A DNA stretch of 64,000 nucleotides. Source: Candidatus Avelusimicrobium pullarium. Lineage in GTDB: Bacteria > Elusimicrobiota > Elusimicrobia > Elusimicrobiales > Elusimicrobiaceae. The stretch spans positions 796,863 through 860,862 of the forward strand of contig CALUTQ010000001.1 of NCBI GenBank assembly GCA_944323745.1, given 5' to 3'. The position numbers were made by a program, and so were the translations under genes. This document shows positions 14,211 through 25,340 of this stretch, piece by piece. Each line of letters begins with the position of its first letter. Within the stretch, counting starts at the first letter, position 1. A model generated the notes under the pieces. The model did no database searches. It was not told the DNA's origin and saw only the letters and a program-made list of their open reading frames with translations.

Positions 14211-15206
14211 ATGGGAATAAAAGATAATTTAAATAAAAGTTTTACAATTGACTACCGTGACGAATACCAGAAGAGACACCGGGAAACTATTTATGGTAGT
14301 AAAACACTGGCTAAAGAGATCTTAGCCAAGCGTAAGGCCGAGATAGCCGAAAGGAAGTTCTTCCCGGACAGAAAGAAACAACAACTTACCTTTTGGGAAG
14401 CGGCGGATAAATACTATGCCATTCACCTGAGTAAGAAAAAAAGTGCTTTTAAGATGAAATATACGATAGAATTTCTCAAAAAGTACTTTGGGAATAAGCC
14501 CCTAGCCAGTATTACTACGGCCAATGTACAGGAGTTTTATAACCAACGCCTGGCCGAAACTAGTCCATCCACCGCCAACAGACACTTTAGCGTCCTGCGG
14601 GCTATTATTAACAAAGTCATCTTGCTTAAGTTGTATAAGGGTGAAAATCCGTGCATAGGAGTAGGAAAGCAAAAAGAAAACCCTGCCCGCACCAATTACC
14701 TATCGCAAGAAGAGATTAAAGAAGTTTTGTTGCATATTCCAGAGCGTTCCCGTAACTTGGTAGCCTTTGCTATCTGTACAGGTATGCGCCGGGGCGAAAT
14801 TCTACGCCTGGATTGGAAAGACATTGATTGGACGAATAACATTATCCATATTTATATTTCCAAATCCGGCAATAAGCGGGAAGTGCCCATTATGCCGTCT
14901 TTACGTCAGGTATTACTGAGTATGCACCCGCTTAAAACAGGTAAAGTATTTCCGCTAACGGAAAAAATGGTGGAGTACGACTTTCGTCATACACTCAAAA
15001 AACTGGGCATACAAAACATCCGCTTTCACGATTTGCGCCACACTTTTGCCAGTCATTTTATGATGAAAGGCGGCTCTATTACCGATTTACAGCGTATTTT
15101 GGGCCATTCCGACTTAAAATTAACACAACGCTACGCGCATTTAAGCCCTACTTATTTGCGTAAATCCATAGAAATTGTGAATGATTTACTGCCACAATTT
15201 GCATAA
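14211..15206 (+). CDS. Tyrosine recombinase (integrase)
   Basis: A 331-aa phage-type integrase with an N-terminal arm-binding segment (1-50), a SAM-like core-binding domain (about 55-155) and a C-terminal catalytic domain. The catalytic residues are visible as R193 in TGMRRGE, H273-x-x-R276 in HDLRHT, H299 in LGHSD and nucleophile Y308 in QRYAH. It would insert the element by site-specific recombination, commonly into the 3' end of a tRNA gene, which agrees with the tRNA-end fragment at 19075-19102. It sits directly behind the xis-like gene and before a small PC4-like gene. Confidence 0.93.
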   Translation: MGIKDNLNKSFTIDYRDEYQKRHRETIYGSKTLAKEILAKRKAEIAERKFFPDRKKQQLTFWEAADKYYAIHLSKKKSAFKMKYTIEFLKKYFGNKPLASITTANVQEFYNQRLAETSPSTANRHFSVLRAIINKVILLKLYKGENPCIGVGKQKENPARTNYLSQEEIKEVLLHIPERSRNLVAFAICTGMRRGEILRLDWKDIDWTNNIIHIYISKSGNKREVPIMPSLRQVLLSMHPLKTGKVFPLTEKMVEYDFRHTLKKLGIQNIRFHDLRHTFASHFMMKGGSITDLQRILGHSDLKLTQRYAHLSPTYLRKSIEIVNDLLPQFA

Positions 15207-15541: not shown

Positions 15542-16513
15542 TTAATGTTTACTTTGAGGTTTATTGGAAGCCATTTTTTGCTTTAATATTTTTCTAGTTT
15601 TTCCATATAAGGGGAGAAACATCGTAGGATCTTGTAAATGAGTTGCGGCTATTTTCCCATTCAAACTACGCAATTGCTTCAGTGTAAAAGAATCCAGATT
15701 TTGATTATTCACCATTTTACTTATATCATGGCGCAGTTTCCGTGTGGGAATCAATTGATGCCCAGGGGTAATACAATTTCCTGTTACAACTTTATAATGT
15801 GAGGGGCCATAATGTTTAATTTTTGATAATTTGAAAGAGAGGCCAACACTTTTTAATCGATTATGGATATTATTAATTATCTTGGATGAAATCGGACGAG
15901 AAAAGGAAAGGGTTAAGTCATCTACATACAATGTCATGGTTACCCCTAATCGTGTCACATAGTCGGCAATATCATTAAAAGTATGATAATATGCCCAAAA
16001 AGCAACAACTTGACTACATGGAGAACCTGTTGGTATAAAACAATGTCCTGTTTGAACATCTTGGAACATGACAAGTTCTGTTAAAAAAAACGCGACATCG
16101 GGAGAAGTTTGAAAAGTATATAAAAACATCTGATAAACACGCTCACGCGCTACGTGTTTATAAAATTTCTCAATATCTACACAAGTTACAAAATTGGCAG
16201 GAATATGAGGGCGCGCATTATCCGTTATATTTTTACCCTTTTGGCCAGATATTAACCAAGTTGGGACTTCTGTCCGAGCAAATAAATCTTTAATACGGCT
16301 ATGAATTCCTTTCAATATTCCAATAGGTTCTTCTACCTGCCTGCTTTTACCTTTTTGTTTCATTGTAAATACATGGTAATATTCGCTAGGGTTAGTTTTA
16401 AGAACCTTAGTAATAGATTGAATTTCTTTAACAGACAATCCTAAGAGATTAGCCAATTTTCTTTTGGACTCTAATCGGAAAAAGGGAGAATGAGAAATTG
16501 GTTTGGCAGTCAT
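15542..16513 (-). CDS. Retron reverse transcriptase
   Basis: A 323-aa reverse transcriptase that would copy part of the adjacent ncRNA into branched msDNA. Retron-specific signatures are present: NAxxH as NARPH (99-103) before the first catalytic aspartate (D113 in VDIEKFY), and the VTG triplet (243-245) in the C-terminal Y region that recognises the RNA. The active site is YVDD (196-199) where most retrons have YADD. GSPCS (163-167) is the expected motif between them. The start overlaps the XRE gene stop by four bases (ATGA). Length and the absence of a maturase or endonuclease domain fit a retron and not a group II intron. Defence against phage is the known role of many retrons. Confidence 0.93.
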   Translation of the reverse strand: MTAKPISHSPFFRLESKRKLANLLGLSVKEIQSITKVLKTNPSEYYHVFTMKQKGKSRQVEEPIGILKGIHSRIKDLFARTEVPTWLISGQKGKNITDNARPHIPANFVTCVDIEKFYKHVARERVYQMFLYTFQTSPDVAFFLTELVMFQDVQTGHCFIPTGSPCSQVVAFWAYYHTFNDIADYVTRLGVTMTLYVDDLTLSFSRPISSKIINNIHNRLKSVGLSFKLSKIKHYGPSHYKVVTGNCITPGHQLIPTRKLRHDISKMVNNQNLDSFTLKQLRSLNGKIAATHLQDPTMFLPLYGKTRKILKQKMASNKPQSKH

Positions 16514-16803
16514 TTGCTCTTTTTTAGATGGTCCAAGGCCTCTAAGAATTTCAAGATATTATTACGCAAGGCCGTTTTTGTTTTGCTATCTATTTGTATA
16601 TTTTCAGAAAAAAACAAAATAGCAGACTCTGTTGTATGAAACACAGTGGCATACTTGCGGATAATGTCTAAGGAAGGATTTTTTTTGCCTGATTCAATTT
16701 CGGATAAATAGCCAATTGAAACTTTCATTTCTTTGGCTAATTCCGATAGGCTCATATCATTAAAAACACGAATAAGGCGCAAGGCTTTATTTAATTTATT
16801 CAT
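16510..16803 (-). CDS. XRE-family HTH protein of the retron
   Basis: A 97-aa protein whose residues 3-60 are a Cro/CI-type helix-turn-helix (LIRVFNDMSLSELAKEMKVS followed by IGYLSEIESGKKNPS). The C-terminal 35 residues form a short helical extension. It lies between the retron RNA and the RT: its start codon is only 11 bases past the a2 repeat, and its stop overlaps the RT start by 4 bases. HTH proteins of this size are known retron partners, where they act as the accessory effector or regulator. No separate toxin gene is visible, so this protein may itself be the effector. Confidence 0.88.
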   Translation of the reverse strand: MNKLNKALRLIRVFNDMSLSELAKEMKVSIGYLSEIESGKKNPSLDIIRKYATVFHTTESAILFFSENIQIDSKTKTALRNNILKFLEALDHLKKSK

Positions 16804-19074: not shown

Positions 19075-19102
19075 ACAAGTTCGATTCCTGTTGGGCGCAC
19101 CA
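19075..19102 (+). other. tRNA 3'-end fragment, probable attachment-site scar (attR)
   Basis: The sequence has the T-loop TTCGATT (19080-19086) in a 5-bp T-arm with one mismatch, then a 7-base acceptor strand TGGGCGC, discriminator A and CCA at 19100-19102. No matching 5' half (GCGCCCA and a D-arm) occurs upstream, so this is not a complete tRNA gene. A tyrosine integrase lies in the same island, and such enzymes commonly use tRNA 3' ends. The best reading is the distal attachment site, with the intact tRNA outside the window. Confidence 0.7.
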
Positions 19103-19312
19103 TATAAACCACGCGAAAGCGTGGTTTTTTGTGCGCAAAAAGGACGAACTTGTCCGCCGTAGCCTTACAAAACGGCGTTGGGCGCACCATATAAACCACG
19201 CGAAAGCATATTTTTGTGCGCAAAAAGGACGAACTTGTCCGCCGTACTCGTACAAAACGGCGTTGGGCGCACCATATAAACCACGCGAAAACATATTTTT
19301 GTGCGCAAAAAG
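19090..19312 (+). repeat. Three direct repeats of about 85 bp built on the tRNA 3' end
   Basis: Copies begin at 19090, 19177 and 19262 (periods 87 and 85), the third being partial. Each starts with GTTGGGCGCACCATATAAAC, i.e. the tRNA acceptor end plus its downstream terminator region, and continues to TGTGCGCAAAAAG. The first two also share GGACGAACTTGTCCGCCGTA. Only the first copy keeps a perfect terminator stem. Stacked integration/excision scars or tandem duplication of the attachment region could create this. Confidence 0.85.
19106..19130 (+). terminator. Rho-independent terminator of the tRNA locus
   Basis: ACCACGC (19108-19114), a GAAA tetraloop and GCGTGGT (19119-19125) followed by T residues make a classic terminator just past the CCA. 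The equivalent stems in the second and third repeat copies are broken by mutation. Confidence 0.88.
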
Positions 19313-19657: not shown

Positions 19658-21238
19658 TTACGAAAATATTTTTTTAAAGAGCTGAAAGCGCCCGAAAAGC
19701 GGGTCGTTGGCTTCTTTTGTAATTATAGGCAGGAGAGCATTGGCTTCTGTGCACTCTAAATTTATCAGGGTCCTGTCCCAATCTACATCATCTTTAAACT
19801 GCTTGTTGTTTTTGCTATAGCCTAATTTTTTGTAAAGCTCCTTTAAATTGCACACATACACTTCCGGCTTGCCCCAAGCACTGGTAACCGCTTTTCGGGC
19901 GTCTTTCAAAGCCGCTTTGTAATTGCCCAGTTTTTTGTAGATTTCGCTGCGGTTGTGGTAGAGCACGGATAACTTTTCGGAGTTTTCCTTATATTTTATG
20001 GCGTGGTTTAACATACGCAGGGCTTCATTATAGTTTTTTTCTTCAAAATAAATGATGCCCAAGTTGTTATAAGCATCGGCGTCCTGATAATAGGTGGAGA
20101 GTACGTAGGGCTCTAAAATCTTTTTGGCGGCCTGTAAATTATTCTTGGCAATCAAACGCATTGCGTCCACCGGCGGATAGGGAGCGCGGCAAAACAACCC
20201 GCAAAACAGCCCCAAAAATATCGTAAGCGTTATGGCGGTGTTTTTAAGGGGAAATTTCGGGCGTATGTAATCATACTGCTTAAAATCGGCCCGATGATAC
20301 TGCGTCTCCAGCAGATTTTTGATTTCGTCAAAATGAGTCACAATATCATTCACGTCATCAAGACCGGCCAATAAATCACGCAGTTGTACGCGCACCCCTT
20401 CATTCTGCCAGCCGAAAACATACACCCATTGAATTTTGTGTTCACTGTTCACGCCGACTATCGCGTTGACCGTGTTGCGTTTGCCGTTTTTCCAATGTCG
20501 CCGCCAATAGTCGGCGACGGAGGTGGGGGTGTTTTCCAGCAAAATAAAGTTAAGTTTAATTTGTTTGGTGCGGAACCAGCAGTTGTAATCTTCCGTCACT
20601 TTTTCCAAGGCGTCTACATCGGCGCCTTTTAACCGGCCGTATATTTCTATTTGGGCATAGTCCATCAGACGATATTTTTTTACGTCTTCTTCGCTTACAT
20701 CTTCCGTTTGAAACACATTGGGCGCGCGCAGGGTGGGGTTGTCGTATTCTTTTTTAATGTAGCGGTAACAGGCCGTTTCATAGGTGCCGGGCCAAACGGT
20801 ATAATAACAGGTGCCGGGGTCAATGACGGTTCCTTTGGCTTCCCAATCGTGGTCGGCGTTGGCTTCGTGTTCATTGCCAAAAGCTTGTACGTAGCGGTTA
20901 TACGTGGTGCGCGAAATGCGCAGCCCCCTTCTGCCTTCGGCTACCGTTACCTCCCATTCTTCCGGATGGCAGACGGTTTCATACGTCACTTTTTTGGTGT
21001 CTTTATCCTCGTGGCGGATACGTTCCGTCCACTCCGTAAAGTAGCACGCCTCCCGCACATAGGTGCCGATATATTCTTCGTCAAGACTTTTGCTTATGTC
21101 TTCAGAATAGAACAGGCCTATAATCAGCCACGCCCCAAGCGAGCCCATCACCAGCCCGAAAATGCCCAACGGCTGGCACCCTATCAGACGGGGGATGATT
21201 ATAAGCAAAGCCAACGCGTATAAATACGAGATGAACAT
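19658..21238 (-). CDS. Membrane protein with C-terminal TPR repeats
   Basis: This 526-aa protein has two N-terminal membrane segments (about 1-20 and 25-45) and a long soluble region with Cys-Tyr rich segments (about 50-340) that I do not recognise. A third membrane segment lies near 345-365, and a TPR array follows at about 375-480 (LGIIYFEEKNYNEALRMLNH and YHNRSEIYKKLGNYKAALKD are typical TPR helices). Its ATG overlaps the stop of the upstream LemA-like gene by one base (TGATG), so the pair is coupled. The likely place is the inner membrane with the TPR domain as a protein-binding platform. Function unknown. Confidence 0.8.
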   Translation of the reverse strand: MFISYLYALALLIIIPRLIGCQPLGIFGLVMGSLGAWLIIGLFYSEDISKSLDEEYIGTYVREACYFTEWTERIRHEDKDTKKVTYETVCHPEEWEVTVAEGRRGLRISRTTYNRYVQAFGNEHEANADHDWEAKGTVIDPGTCYYTVWPGTYETACYRYIKKEYDNPTLRAPNVFQTEDVSEEDVKKYRLMDYAQIEIYGRLKGADVDALEKVTEDYNCWFRTKQIKLNFILLENTPTSVADYWRRHWKNGKRNTVNAIVGVNSEHKIQWVYVFGWQNEGVRVQLRDLLAGLDDVNDIVTHFDEIKNLLETQYHRADFKQYDYIRPKFPLKNTAITLTIFLGLFCGLFCRAPYPPVDAMRLIAKNNLQAAKKILEPYVLSTYYQDADAYNNLGIIYFEEKNYNEALRMLNHAIKYKENSEKLSVLYHNRSEIYKKLGNYKAALKDARKAVTSAWGKPEVYVCNLKELYKKLGYSKNNKQFKDDVDWDRTLINLECTEANALLPIITKEANDPLFGRFQLFKKIFS

Positions 21239-21735
21239 CAGATATTCTCCTTGCCGGAAGCGTAGACATTTTCGGTGTAGTCGGATGTAATGACGGTAAT
21301 TTTGACATCTTCTGCATATGGCAGCACCAGGCAGGCGGGTATGCTGTGTATAAAGGTGCTGTGCTCTTTTTGGCGGGCCACCAACAGACGCTGCTGGGCA
21401 AAAAATTCCTGTCGGTTTGCTTCAATGGCGGTGGCCAGCTGGCGCAGTACGGACGAGTCCAGCGGGGGGTTTTGCTCCATAATAAACGCTATGTCCCGGC
21501 CCTGATAACGTCCGGCAATCAGTTTGGGGTAAATTTCTTTAAACGTTTCCAAATACGTGTCGGAAACGTGGGTGATTTGTTTAATCACTTTCCACATTTT
21601 GTCAAAGTTGGCTTCACAAACCTCCTGCTGGGCCCGCACCAAATTGCGCAGGCGCAGTTCCGTATTGTGTGCAGAAATAAAATAGCCAATAATTACGATG
21701 CCGATTAACAGCAAAATAAATACTCCGGCGGTCAT
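21238..21735 (-). CDS. LemA-family membrane protein
   Basis: A 165-aa protein starting at an ATG five to six bases after AAAGGAG. It has a single N-terminal membrane helix (FILLLIGIVIIGYFISAHN) followed by a helical domain with the LemA-type pattern LRNLVRAQQEVCEANFDKMW and further long helices. LemA proteins expose a helical bundle outside the inner membrane and have no well-defined biochemical role. It is translationally coupled to the TPR membrane protein, which suggests the two work together. Confidence 0.7.
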   Translation of the reverse strand: MTAGVFILLLIGIVIIGYFISAHNTELRLRNLVRAQQEVCEANFDKMWKVIKQITHVSDTYLETFKEIYPKLIAGRYQGRDIAFIMEQNPPLDSSVLRQLATAIEANRQEFFAQQRLLVARQKEHSTFIHSIPACLVLPYAEDVKITVITSDYTENVYASGKENI

Positions 21736-22537: not shown

Positions 22538-23908
22538 CTATAAACATATTTTTACGGGTTGCCGCAAAAATTCTTCCTGAAACAGCCTCCCCACTTGCTG
22601 TTGCAGGCCGCGCGCACCTAAGCGGCGTTCGTAGGCTTGATTTACCATTTCTTCCACCGTTTCCGGCCGTATAGCGGCGGGCGTATGCAGGAGCCTTTTG
22701 TATTGGCTGATCGGCCCGTTGTGGGGGTTGAGCAAAATACGCCGCAGGTCTTCTTTGCCAAGCGGGTGCAACTGCACAAAATACGCAAAGCGGCCTATAA
22801 ATTCCGGCAGCATACCGTAGCCGATGTAATCGTCGGCCGACAAGGTTTTTTGGCAAAAGACGGTGCCTTGGGTAAAGCCGACGGCTTTGTCCCCGTGTTT
22901 GGCGTGCAAATTTTCAAAAGCGCCGCCGGCCACAAAGAGCACTTGGGAAATATCCCACTCGTCTGTTTTGTGCGAAAAGGGATCTTCGCTGATAAAATGT
23001 TGGCTTTCTATCATACGCAAAAGTTCCGCCTGTACATTGCACGAAGAAACGCCCCAGCGTTCGCTTCCTTCACGCAGTTTGTCAATTTCGTCAATAAACA
23101 CGATGGAAAGCGGCAGCTTTTTGTTTTTTGCCAACGCCTGCAGCGGCTGCAAAATATTGCCTATGTTCATACCGCTATAACCCGTCTGCGTGTATTGCGA
23201 AGCATCAGCGTGGACGAACGGAATTTTTAAAATACGCGCCAGACATTGGCATAAGTACGTTTTGCCGCAGCCCGTCGGCCCGCTGATAAAAATGTTGTTT
23301 TTAGCATACGGGACGTCTTTGGCTTGGCTGCATTTGGCTAAATGTTCAAAGACGCCGGCCACCAACTGCTTTTTGGCATCTTCCTGCCCGATGACGTATT
23401 TGTTCAGTTCCGCCAGCACGCGTTGCGGCGCAAAGGTGCGGCGTGTTTTGCGGGAAGAAACTGACGCAGGGGGGGCTAAAAGCGGGTTGCGTTTAATGTC
23501 CACAATGCCGGCCGAAAACGACAAAATTCGTTTGTTAAACAGAATGCTTTTGCCGTCAAAAATAGTTTCTAAAGCTTCTTTGCTTGAGGCAAACGTTTGC
23601 GCCGTTTGCAGCAGGGCGGTTGCCTTGCACGTAGAAGGCGTAATCACCCGCAATAACTGGGAGGTGCCCAAAAACAGAAGCAGAAACATCTCTGTATTGT
23701 TTAATTTGTATTGTTTTACCAAGCCGGCCATCGGTATTTTTTGGGCGTTGGACTTTTGTAAACGCGCGCAGATTTCTTTAAACAGCTCCACACATTCCGC
23801 CTGCCGTATGGCCACGCCGCATTTGGCGTGCCAGCGTGTTAACTGTTCAATCAGCTCCGTACGGGAAGCGTATCCCTTTATCGTTTTTGATTTCGTTGTT
23901 CCTTCCAT
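22538..23908 (-). CDS. ClpX-like AAA+ ATPase with a non-ClpX N-terminal domain
   Basis: A 456-aa protein; I chose ATG 23908, preceded by GAGGAAG. Residues 1 to about 150 are a helical domain unlike the ClpX zinc finger. The rest is a ClpX/HslU-type AAA+ module: a Walker A GPTGCGKT, the pore-side sequence ASQYTQTGYSGMNIGNIL, a Walker B IVFIDEIDK, and a C-terminal sensor-2-like RRLGARGLQQQVGRLF. ClpX unfolds substrates for ClpP; no obvious IGF-type ClpP-binding loop is apparent, so it may act as a stand-alone remodeller. A SAM-I riboswitch and terminators lie upstream on the same strand, and a WYL regulator is next door. Confidence 0.85.
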   Translation of the reverse strand: MEGTTKSKTIKGYASRTELIEQLTRWHAKCGVAIRQAECVELFKEICARLQKSNAQKIPMAGLVKQYKLNNTEMFLLLFLGTSQLLRVITPSTCKATALLQTAQTFASSKEALETIFDGKSILFNKRILSFSAGIVDIKRNPLLAPPASVSSRKTRRTFAPQRVLAELNKYVIGQEDAKKQLVAGVFEHLAKCSQAKDVPYAKNNIFISGPTGCGKTYLCQCLARILKIPFVHADASQYTQTGYSGMNIGNILQPLQALAKNKKLPLSIVFIDEIDKLREGSERWGVSSCNVQAELLRMIESQHFISEDPFSHKTDEWDISQVLFVAGGAFENLHAKHGDKAVGFTQGTVFCQKTLSADDYIGYGMLPEFIGRFAYFVQLHPLGKEDLRRILLNPHNGPISQYKRLLHTPAAIRPETVEEMVNQAYERRLGARGLQQQVGRLFQEEFLRQPVKICL

Positions 23909-24056
23909 ATGTCTTCCTCTTATGCACCGTGATAAATATTCCAATCGTTATAGTCTAACGTCTTTTTTTCACGCTCCCGTTCGTCTGTAAAGCTACCCCT
24001 ACGCGGCAGTCGGGAAAAACGTGTTTCTGTTTCAGGCGGTATTGTTTCTTGGACAT

Positions 24057-24092
24057 AAAAAAACCTCTCTTGCGCTGTGCCCATCAGAGAGG
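24057..24092 (-). terminator. Second terminator-like hairpin downstream of the riboswitch
   Basis: CCTCTCT and AGAGAGG (plus-strand 24064-24070 and 24086-24092) form a perfect 7-bp stem followed on the minus strand by seven T residues. The AGAGAGG arm could also serve as a ribosome binding site for an ATG at 24056, so this hairpin could act at transcription or translation level. Confidence 0.75.
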
Positions 24093-24095
24093 TGG

Positions 24096-24127
24096 TAAAA
24101 AAGAACCCATCGTCTCCAATGGGTTCT
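24096..24127 (-). terminator. Riboswitch expression-platform terminator
   Basis: AGAACCCAT and ATGGGTTCT (24102-24110 and 24119-24127 on the plus strand) form a perfect 9-bp stem with an 8-nt loop, followed on the minus strand by six T residues. It lies 25 bases past the SAM aptamer. The GATGGGG stretch just past the aptamer (about 24146-24152) could pair with its CCCAT arm as an antiterminator. Confidence 0.88.
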
Positions 24128-24151
24128 ACATAAAACGGTTGCAGTCCCCAT

Positions 24152-24238
24152 CGTGCAAGCATTAGCACCTTACCCTCAGGCAGGTTGCTGTGTAGTCATC
24201 GGGCTTGTCCCTCGTACACTCATAATGGATCTGTACGG
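24152..24238 (-). promoter_or_regulatory. SAM-I (S-box) riboswitch aptamer
   Basis: Reading the minus strand, the conserved S-box core is present in order: CATTATGAG, GAGGGACAAGCCCGATGA, GCAACC and AAGGTGCTAAT. P2 closes with GTGTA/TACAC, and P1 can form between CGTACAGAT and GCTTGCACG with mismatches. These match the SAM-I consensus as I know it. SAM binding normally stabilises P1 and the terminator, lowering expression. The genes downstream are the ClpX-like ATPase and its partner, not recognisable methionine genes, which is unusual. Confidence 0.85.
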
Positions 24239-24320
24239 TATTTTTCGGAAGACCCGATTTCCTCTGCCTGGCGCAGCGCCTTTTGCGGCTGCTTGCGTTG
24301 TTTTCCTAGGAATCGGAGAT

Positions 24321-24349
24321 TTTATAGCCAAGCTATAAATCTTCCTCAA
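24321..24349 (-). promoter_or_regulatory. Promoter of the riboswitch/ClpX-like transcript
   Basis: On the minus strand TTGAGG (24349-24344), a 17-base spacer and TATAAA (24326-24321) form a good sigma-70 promoter. The start would fall near 24314, giving a leader of about 75 bases before the SAM aptamer. Confidence 0.65.
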
Positions 24350-24370
24350 AATAACGTTATCGTTTTAAAC

Positions 24371-24403
24371 GGATAAAAACGACATTTAAATGTCTTTTTA
24401 TCC
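24371..24403. promoter_or_regulatory. 33-bp palindrome with a GACA-N6-TGTC core, candidate WYL-regulator operator
   Basis: GACATTTAAATGTC (24381-24394) is a 14-bp perfect palindrome inside longer arms GGATAAAAA and TTTTTATCC. It ends 22 bases upstream of the -35 box of the riboswitch transcript, where an activator or repressor could bind. The same core recurs at 24460, 25361, 62452 and 63539. Confidence 0.65.
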
Positions 24404-24459
24404 TTTCTATACAAAAATTATAGCAAAAATAAGGGGATTTGTCCACCCCCAGGTTATTT

Positions 24460-24480
24460 ACGACATTATTGTGTCTTTTT
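24460..24480. promoter_or_regulatory. GACA-N6-TGTC operator-like site
   Basis: CGACA-TTATTG-TGTC lies in the gap between the WYL gene stop and the 33-bp palindrome. It shares the core and the flanking A/T runs of the palindrome at 24371-24403. Confidence 0.5.
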
Positions 24481-24494
24481 TAGTATTTTTATGC

Positions 24495-25340
24495 TTAAAT
24501 AGTTGTTTCTTTGGGGGGAGTGGCAGGGGAATGACCCTCTGGGGAAAGCGTTGTTTCTTCGGCCGCGTCTGCAGGAAGGGGAGCGGCCGCCTCTTTTTGG
24601 GGAGCAGGGGACGGAACAGGAACGGGCTGTGCGTCGGGTTGTGCCTGGGCTTGCTTGGCCTGCTGCAGCCATTGATGGGCGCATTGCCAAATGTGCCATT
24701 CTGCAAATAAAATAGGACGGAATTGGGCAAAGCCGGTAGCCGTGGAATCATCCTGCCGAAGGGAAAAATGGCCGATATTATCCAAGGCGTAACAGGCGGT
24801 TTCCCGCCCGGGAGTAACGCAGGCCACGTGCCATTTGTCGTACAGGCGCAGCAAAACATAGGGGTAAAGCGTACGGTTTTTTTTAAGGTCTTTGAGATAC
24901 ACCCGCAACGTACAATGGTATTTGATGCATTTTAGCAGCATAATGGCGGTTTCTTGCGTGGCTGCAAAATCGTACTTTGTGGCGCCAAAAACACAATTTT
25001 CAAACGAAGGCGGCAGAAAACGGCGGGCAATTTGCGCGGGAAGGGGGGCAAAATCTTCGCCGATTTGCCGGGCAACGTCGGAAGCCATAATAAACAGGGC
25101 GGCCTGTGCGGCAGAGAGGTTGGCCGCTTCCAAGGAAAACCCCTCAGCCAGTTCATATAGGCTTTGGCGCGGGGAAAGCACCGGAAATTGCGCCTGCTGC
25201 AGCAGCCCCATATCGCGCTGAATCGTGCGTATGGAAACGCCGAAGCGGGTTGCCAAATCGGGCACGGAAACGGGAGCTTTTTGCAAAAGCGTCAAAATGC
25301 GGGCCAGGCGCTTGGTTTTGCTGGTAATTTCCTTGGACAT
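24495..25340 (-). CDS. WYL-type HTH transcriptional regulator
   Basis: A 281-aa protein with an N-terminal DeoR-type winged HTH (VSVPDLATRFGVSIRTIQRD, about 24-43). The WYL-like ligand domain is at about 115-215; the Trp-Tyr-Leu segment is replaced by DKWHVACV. The C-terminal 60 residues are low-complexity, rich in Gln, Pro and Ala, unlike the usual WCX domain. WYL regulators often control defence or DNA-damage genes and sense nucleic acids or nucleotides. A perfect TATAAT six bases before the ATG suggests a leaderless transcript, and a GACA-N6 site 21 bases upstream suggests autoregulation. Confidence 0.8.
   Translation of the reverse strand: MSKEITSKTKRLARILTLLQKAPVSVPDLATRFGVSIRTIQRDMGLLQQAQFPVLSPRQSLYELAEGFSLEAANLSAAQAALFIMASDVARQIGEDFAPLPAQIARRFLPPSFENCVFGATKYDFAATQETAIMLLKCIKYHCTLRVYLKDLKKNRTLYPYVLLRLYDKWHVACVTPGRETACYALDNIGHFSLRQDDSTATGFAQFRPILFAEWHIWQCAHQWLQQAKQAQAQPDAQPVPVPSPAPQKEAAAPLPADAAEETTLSPEGHSPATPPKETTI

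Follow-up and report, generated by a model that had tools for sequence, protein, structure and literature searches.

A SAM-I aptamer precedes a cassette with a ClpX-like ATPase

The window, a 64,000-nucleotide stretch of DNA, carries on its minus strand a cassette in which a promoter and a long leader are followed by a short reading frame and genes for a ClpX-like ATPase, a partner protein and two predicted membrane proteins (Table 1). Using cmscan, we found a single Rfam element in the window, a SAM-I (S-box) aptamer whose match (56.4 bits, E = 2.3e-10) lies above the RF00162 gathering cut-off of 44.4 bits and spans the full model (1-108). A sequence-only reading of this DNA had proposed a SAM-I riboswitch at 24152-24238; the element and its site are right, and the coordinates were 7 nt off. 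This S-box is the only one in the 1.6-Mb genome, and metK is encoded elsewhere without one.

Table 1. Features of the cassette and its leader (O1 and O2, putative operators; U1, conserved RNA; T1, terminator; H2, hairpin)
Feature	Position	Strand	Basis
HTH/WYL-type regulator gene of the cassette, 281 aa	24495..25340	-	Pfam HTH_11 2.6e-8; PADLOC WYL 7.2e-18
Putative operator O1, AAAAAGACACAATAATGTCGTAAA	24457..24480	.	palindrome repeated 81 bp away
Promoter TGGACA-17-TGC/TATAAT	24417..24445	-	11/12 bases; position and spacer conserved in orthologous cassettes
Putative operator O2, AAAAAGACATTTAAATGTCGTTTT	24376..24399	.	second copy of the palindrome
U1, undescribed conserved structured RNA	24232..24359	-	directly 5' of the aptamer; three helices with covariation
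SAM-I (S-box) aptamer	24145..24231	-	RF00162, score above gathering
Intrinsic terminator T1	24102..24127	-	11-bp stem followed by U6
Hairpin H2	24063..24093	-	ACCTCTC (24093-24087) / GAGAGGT (24069-24063)
33-codon frame	23955..24056	-	frameshifted copy of a conserved small gene ending GYNDWDIYHG
ClpX-like AAA+ ATPase with its own N-domain, 456 aa	22538..23908	-	Pfam AAA_2 2.2e-16
Partner protein, 170 aa	22016..22528	-	paralogue of the ATPase N-domain
Small predicted membrane protein, PHROG 1383, 165 aa from ATG 21735	21238..21735	-	phrog_1383 2.6e-26
Predicted membrane protein with TPR repeats, PHROG 2087, 526 aa	19658..21238	-	Pfam TPR; phrog_2087 1.6e-18

The ATPase and the paralogous partner named in the earlier reading are both real, the former by its Pfam match and the latter because residues 9-85 of the ATPase query match it with 32% identity (G000:C1:819085-819315). 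The ATPase does not qualify as a ClpX by the curated models, scoring far below the cut-offs of both (207.8 bits against 359, and 176.7 against 370.75). These models align only from model position 51-61, corresponding to ATPase residue 150-153, and a zinc-finger Pfam match, as for the N-terminal zinc-binding region of ClpX, was absent from the ATPase. The motifs GPTGCGK, DEIDK, the GYxG pore loop, VGF and GARGL, which include the Walker motifs and sensor-2, are conserved in 15 orthologues, and the VGF tripeptide sits at the position of the ClpP-docking IGF. By sequence, the ATPase is closest to ClpX but is not a canonical one, its N-domain being swapped, and it probably docks on ClpP through the VGF loop. 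ClpP is encoded in this genome and in the family; a search of 25 family genomes gave no canonical ClpX that passed the cut-off, and the profile hits there were limited to the cassette ATPases and a second, related subfamily. Members of that subfamily are 500-600 aa long, lack an S-box, come mostly from other families of the phylum (L093, L094, L142-L149) and are often encoded near a WYL regulator or a PAD_porph-like or DUF2779-like gene. When species genomes were scanned with the ATPase profile, with close relatives of the window left out, only relatives at the level of ClpX (30-38% identity) appeared, and the N-domain, the partner and the membrane proteins were not found in the flanks of 160 genome and viral loci.

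The first frame behind the leader, 24056-23955, exists mechanically as had been described, but as a gene it is a broken copy: intact relatives have 41-48 codons and the C-terminus GYNDWDIYHG(A). From ATG 24056 to the conserved stop at 23920 there are 137 nt, which is not a multiple of three, and ATG 24084 is in frame with that stop. Pairwise dN/dS values of the small gene are mostly below 0.6. At the other end of the cassette, relatives of both membrane proteins occur in huge phages, with 22-38% identity to the phage proteins. Within the family, the TPR/PHROG-2087 protein was found in these cassettes only, apart from one broken copy. A first impression that 21238-21735 encodes a LemA protein was discarded, as Pfam gave no LemA match at a threshold of E 0.1 for the window protein or 1e-4 for a phage homologue, leaving phrog_1383 only. 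Single-sequence AlphaFold modelling of the partner and of the TPR membrane protein reached a mean pLDDT of only 41, and the models were set aside.

In the family, the ATPase is always preceded by an S-box

Conservation was assessed in 90 genomes of the host's bacterial family. The ATPase is encoded in 17 of them, with 52-78% identity to that of the window, and all 17, which belong to two genera, have a co-oriented RF00162 match at a distance of a few hundred bases upstream of the gene. The pairing of riboswitch and ATPase, whose conservation had been suggested as a check, is therefore kept wherever the ATPase occurs in this set. The distribution of the cassette is patchy, and the flanking genes mostly differ between loci. 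In the open-access literature, searches gave no earlier description of a ClpX-like gene behind a SAM riboswitch.

SAM riboswitches are textbook regulators of methionine metabolism. A further 18 S-boxes in the family stand before other accessory genes, among them one for an N-formylglutamate-amidohydrolase-like protein, members of a protein family whose end resembles a zinc ribbon, a stand-alone copy of the ATPase partner, and further genes that belong to no known family; no methionine gene was found behind those of the 18 that were tested. The combination of a SAM-I aptamer, a terminator and a hairpin over the ribosome site heads many unrelated small accessory genes at these 18 loci (for example L064, L065, L067 and L072), and likewise precedes accessory genes in a sister family (L131-L133). 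The S-boxes that head small accessory genes form a regulon of variable genes under riboswitches. Judged from their translations, the genes behind S-boxes in distant classes of the phylum are threonine-synthase-like, cysteine-synthase-like or otherwise related to sulfur; by this comparison, it was apparently in the host lineage that the S-box moved to accessory genes.

The leader combines a conserved promoter, putative operators and an undescribed RNA

The sequence-only reading had credited the leader with its own promoter, a 17-base spacer, an expression-platform terminator and a second hairpin hiding AGAGAGG, all of which were confirmed together with the aptamer, and it had overlooked the two putative operators and U1, a further conserved RNA. 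A promoter matching 10-12 of 12 bases, with the same 17-nt spacer, lies 202-222 nt upstream of the aptamer in 13 of the 17 orthologous cassettes. Because position and spacer recur in this way, the promoter is more than a chance match. It is flanked by two palindromes of the form AAAAAGACATT-n-AATGTCGTTTT, spaced start to start by 81 bp in eight loci and by 82 bp in one. The pair occurs only in loci with a class-I HTH regulator upstream and is absent from loci with a regulator of another class or with none; we regard the palindromes as putative operators of the adjacent WYL-type regulator. A regulator of this family lies upstream in most cassettes, its WYL assignment coming from the PADLOC model only, with no Pfam WYL match in the window protein. 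The S-box is invariant (17/17 cassettes), whereas this operator and regulator layer is optional.

U1 spans about 130 nt between the promoter and the aptamer in 13 of 17 cassettes and contains three or more helices. Five of its pairs show changes on both sides, and none of 500 shuffles reached the observed pairing or covariation score. Under strict filters, a U1 model matched only 13 sites in 90 genomes, all of them directly 5' of these S-boxes, and nothing credible matched U1 in Rfam. Possible roles of U1 are those of a second sensor, a scaffold on which the aptamer folds, or a site for a protein. In the leaders of G010, G072 and the related G020 (L078, L091 and L061, respectively), the position immediately 5' of the aptamer is occupied not by U1 but by a different hairpin, U2; this hairpin is conserved, has AATTTAAGCAGAAGTCTGGC in its core and replaces U1 where the upstream regulator belongs to another class.

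Predicted alternative helices of the expression platform

In all 35 family leaders the aptamer is followed by T1 and then by H2 over the ribosome site of the first gene. In the window, H2 covers AGAGAGG at 24070-24064, before ATG 24056, and this arrangement is conserved in nearly all orthologues. The leaders come in two versions, type A, comprising the leaders of the ATPase cassettes, and type B. In both types the P1 3' strand pairs with the 5' half of T1 (helix AT1), and in the window a transcript reaching just short of the 3' half of T1 is predicted to fold best with AT1. Such pairing is the usual SAM-I antiterminator. In type A, the 5' half of T1 together with its loop (CCCATTGGAGA; 24123-24113 in the window) can also pair over 11 bp with the 5' strand of H2 (TCTCYRATGGG; 24090-24080), forming a helix, AT2, that would break the terminator and free the ribosome site together. 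AT1 and AT2 share one strand, T1-5', and the AT2 helix itself is compatible with P1.

Across 12 type-A leaders, 99% of the cells of T1 and 97% of those of AT2 were paired, compared with 36-54% for slid versions of AT2. Changes on both sides of AT2 were seen in 3 of 12 sequences. Against shuffles, covariation among these 12 related leaders was modest for AT2 (32/500) and weak for AT1 (113/500). In addition, matched AT2 strands of type A outperformed swapped ones (-17.8 versus -16.7 kcal/mol, p = 0.003, with relatedness not controlled), and matched strands also did better for AT1. In type B, the 5' strand of P1 pairs with H2-5' in place of T1-5', and in two sister-family genomes (G102 and G103) a change in P2 is matched in H2, giving a perfect 14-bp complement. 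The same long-range P1-5'/H2-5' helix was rejected for type A, where matched strands were no better than swapped ones, and was supported for type B. Taken together, T1, H2, AT1 and AT2 appear conserved and mutually compatible. From these predicted folds, we infer that bound SAM would switch the cassette off by two locks and that SAM shortage would switch it on; the order, AT1 and then AT2, is a guess from the energies and the order of transcription.

Defence and restriction-modification genes lie near some S-box loci

The flanks of S-box loci, with or without the cassette, contain type III and type IIG restriction-modification (R-M) genes as well as GmrSD and DrmD-like genes, and recombinase genes lie near some S-boxes. 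Six R-M methyltransferases were counted within 10 kb of S-boxes, against 1.1 expected (p about 0.001; loci counted by hand, under a Poisson model that assumes independent loci). An enrichment of defence genes by PADLOC counts was not decisive, as control windows also held Gabija and other defence genes. For the cassette core, PADLOC gave no system match to the partner or the PHROG-1383 protein, only weak ATPase-domain matches to the unfoldase and a weak match to the TPR protein (0.0042). Phage structural genes were not recognised beside the cassettes. The window itself also encodes a type VI retron reverse transcriptase and HTH protein (15542-16803, minus strand; PADLOC RT_VI 3.9e-68, HTH_VI 5.4e-26), adjoined by a tyrosine-integrase-like gene at 14211-15206. 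At 19090-19311 there are three 50-nt direct repeats (84-86% to the reference, 85-87 bp spacing, GTTGGGCGCACCATATAAACCACGCG) that overlap open frames.

Such defence-like surroundings make SAM depletion by phages a plausible trigger. Phage SAM-degrading enzymes exist and were first found as a counter-defence against R-M (PMC7877911), so a response to SAM shortage would make sense.

A proposed SAM-repressed operon and its competing explanations

We consider the locus to be a SAM-repressed accessory operon, one that most likely serves, at times of falling SAM, in conflicts with phages or with other mobile DNA, and we put the probability of this reading at roughly 0.5. Transcription would start at the promoter between the two putative operators of the WYL-type regulator and run through the leader, with U1, the aptamer, T1 and H2, into the small gene, the ClpX-like unfoldase, its N-domain partner and the two predicted membrane proteins. 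With SAM bound, P1 would form, T1 would end transcription, and any transcript that escaped T1 would have its ribosome site hidden by H2. In the absence of SAM, the P1 3' strand would take T1-5' (AT1) before T1 closes, and T1-5' would then pass to H2-5' (AT2), opening the ribosome site. The unfoldase, probably docked on ClpP by its VGF loop, would act on proteins chosen by the swapped N-domain and the partner. More specifically, the riboswitch, the WYL-type regulator and the new RNA domain may together read SAM depletion caused by phage or stress and release the unfoldase against infection or against the cell's own SAM-dependent restriction enzymes; this version is tentative, with the odds leaning against it.

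The cassette could instead belong to the plain physiology of methionine or SAM starvation, remodelling proteins or membranes with no phage role. Methionine status is the usual signal of SAM-I riboswitches, the S-boxes of distant classes precede genes of sulfur metabolism and the threonine branch, and metK is present in this genome without an S-box; however, a cassette confined to 17 of 90 family genomes in differing flanks, with a WYL-type regulator and two genes that have huge-phage relatives, fits this explanation poorly, and we consider it unlikely, if the strongest of the alternatives. Ranked behind it, and unlikely as well, is SAM-gated restriction alleviation. When SAM is short, host sites stay unmethylated and the cell's own restriction enzymes become dangerous; the unfoldase with ClpP would then remove or disarm them, replacing a ClpX that is apparently absent. 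ClpXP of Escherichia coli degrades EcoKI complexes at unmethylated sites (PMC11109961), and both the ClpP-bearing family in which ClpX was not found (25 genomes) and the excess of methyltransferases near S-boxes agree with such a role. Many cassettes, however, have no R-M gene in the fetched flanks, the two membrane proteins fit poorly, and type-B S-boxes drive unrelated small genes.

That the cassette is a former phage or mobile-element module, with its own riboswitch and now serving the element and not the host, seems improbable. Three Lak megaphages (A1, B7 and C1) do have a PHROG-1383 gene with a ClpX-like gene about 1 kb in front of it, and the recombinase genes near some S-boxes point the same way, but the missing phage structural genes and the low identity to phage proteins argue against it, as does the fact that the N-domain and the partner were not detected in the fetched viral loci carrying the ATPase. 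The ClpX-like gene of Lak-B7 is continuous, whereas those of Lak-A1 and Lak-C1 (L326 and L327) each align as two segments separated by about 1 kb, as though an insertion or intron interrupted them. Least probable of all is that the riboswitch no longer controls the ATPase in the window and that the transcript always ends before it. The frameshifted small gene would suit such decay, but the promoter and the aptamer, like T1 and H2, are intact here and conserved across the 17 genomes. When 23850-24560 was scanned, no terminator-like site turned up between T1 and the start of the ATPase gene, although the loop limit of the scan would miss H2 with its U-run, a possible terminator.

For the SAM-repressed operon, the interest lies in a family whose S-boxes all stand before accessory genes, in contrast to the methionine role of SAM riboswitches, and in an ATPase branch that joins a predicted double lock of terminator and ribosome-site hairpin to a WYL-type regulator and an RNA domain not described before. 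Should a shortage of SAM be the trigger, the riboswitch would link the SAM-degrading counter-defence of phages (PMC7877911) to a host response, and would hint at where a lineage without a detectable canonical ClpX obtains ClpX-like activity.

Comparison with known systems

The Lak megaphages resemble the cassette in encoding, on one strand, a ClpX-like ATPase followed about 1 kb further on by a PHROG-1383 protein; in the fetched region, the N-domain and partner were not detected and no S-box was seen, and, unlike in the cassette, their PHROG-2087 relative lies elsewhere in the phage genome. The ClpX of ClpXP has in common with the ATPase the AAA+ core, the pore loop, sensor-2 and the [IV]GF docking tripeptide; the ATPase differs in scoring far under the curated models and in an N-terminal region that is another domain, common to the partner. 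Like the SAM-I riboswitches of methionine genes (RF00162), the leader has an aptamer of this family and a terminator that an antiterminator formed by P1-3' would counter; here, an unfoldase cassette lies downstream, a predicted second lock covers the ribosome site and U1 adjoins the aptamer. The SAM-I riboswitch of the Xanthomonas met operon (PMC7270179) likewise has a platform that sequesters the ribosome site but, unlike that of the window, it regulates met genes, also senses initiator tRNA and has no intrinsic terminator. BrxR and similar WYL repressors recognise inverted repeats in the promoters of defence systems (PMC9122601), and the BrxR/CapW systems (PMC9122601, PMC9122588) resemble the cassette, which has a candidate HTH and WYL-type regulator beside the operon, inverted repeats at the promoter and defence neighbours; here two putative sites lie 81 bp apart around the promoter and are combined with a riboswitch.
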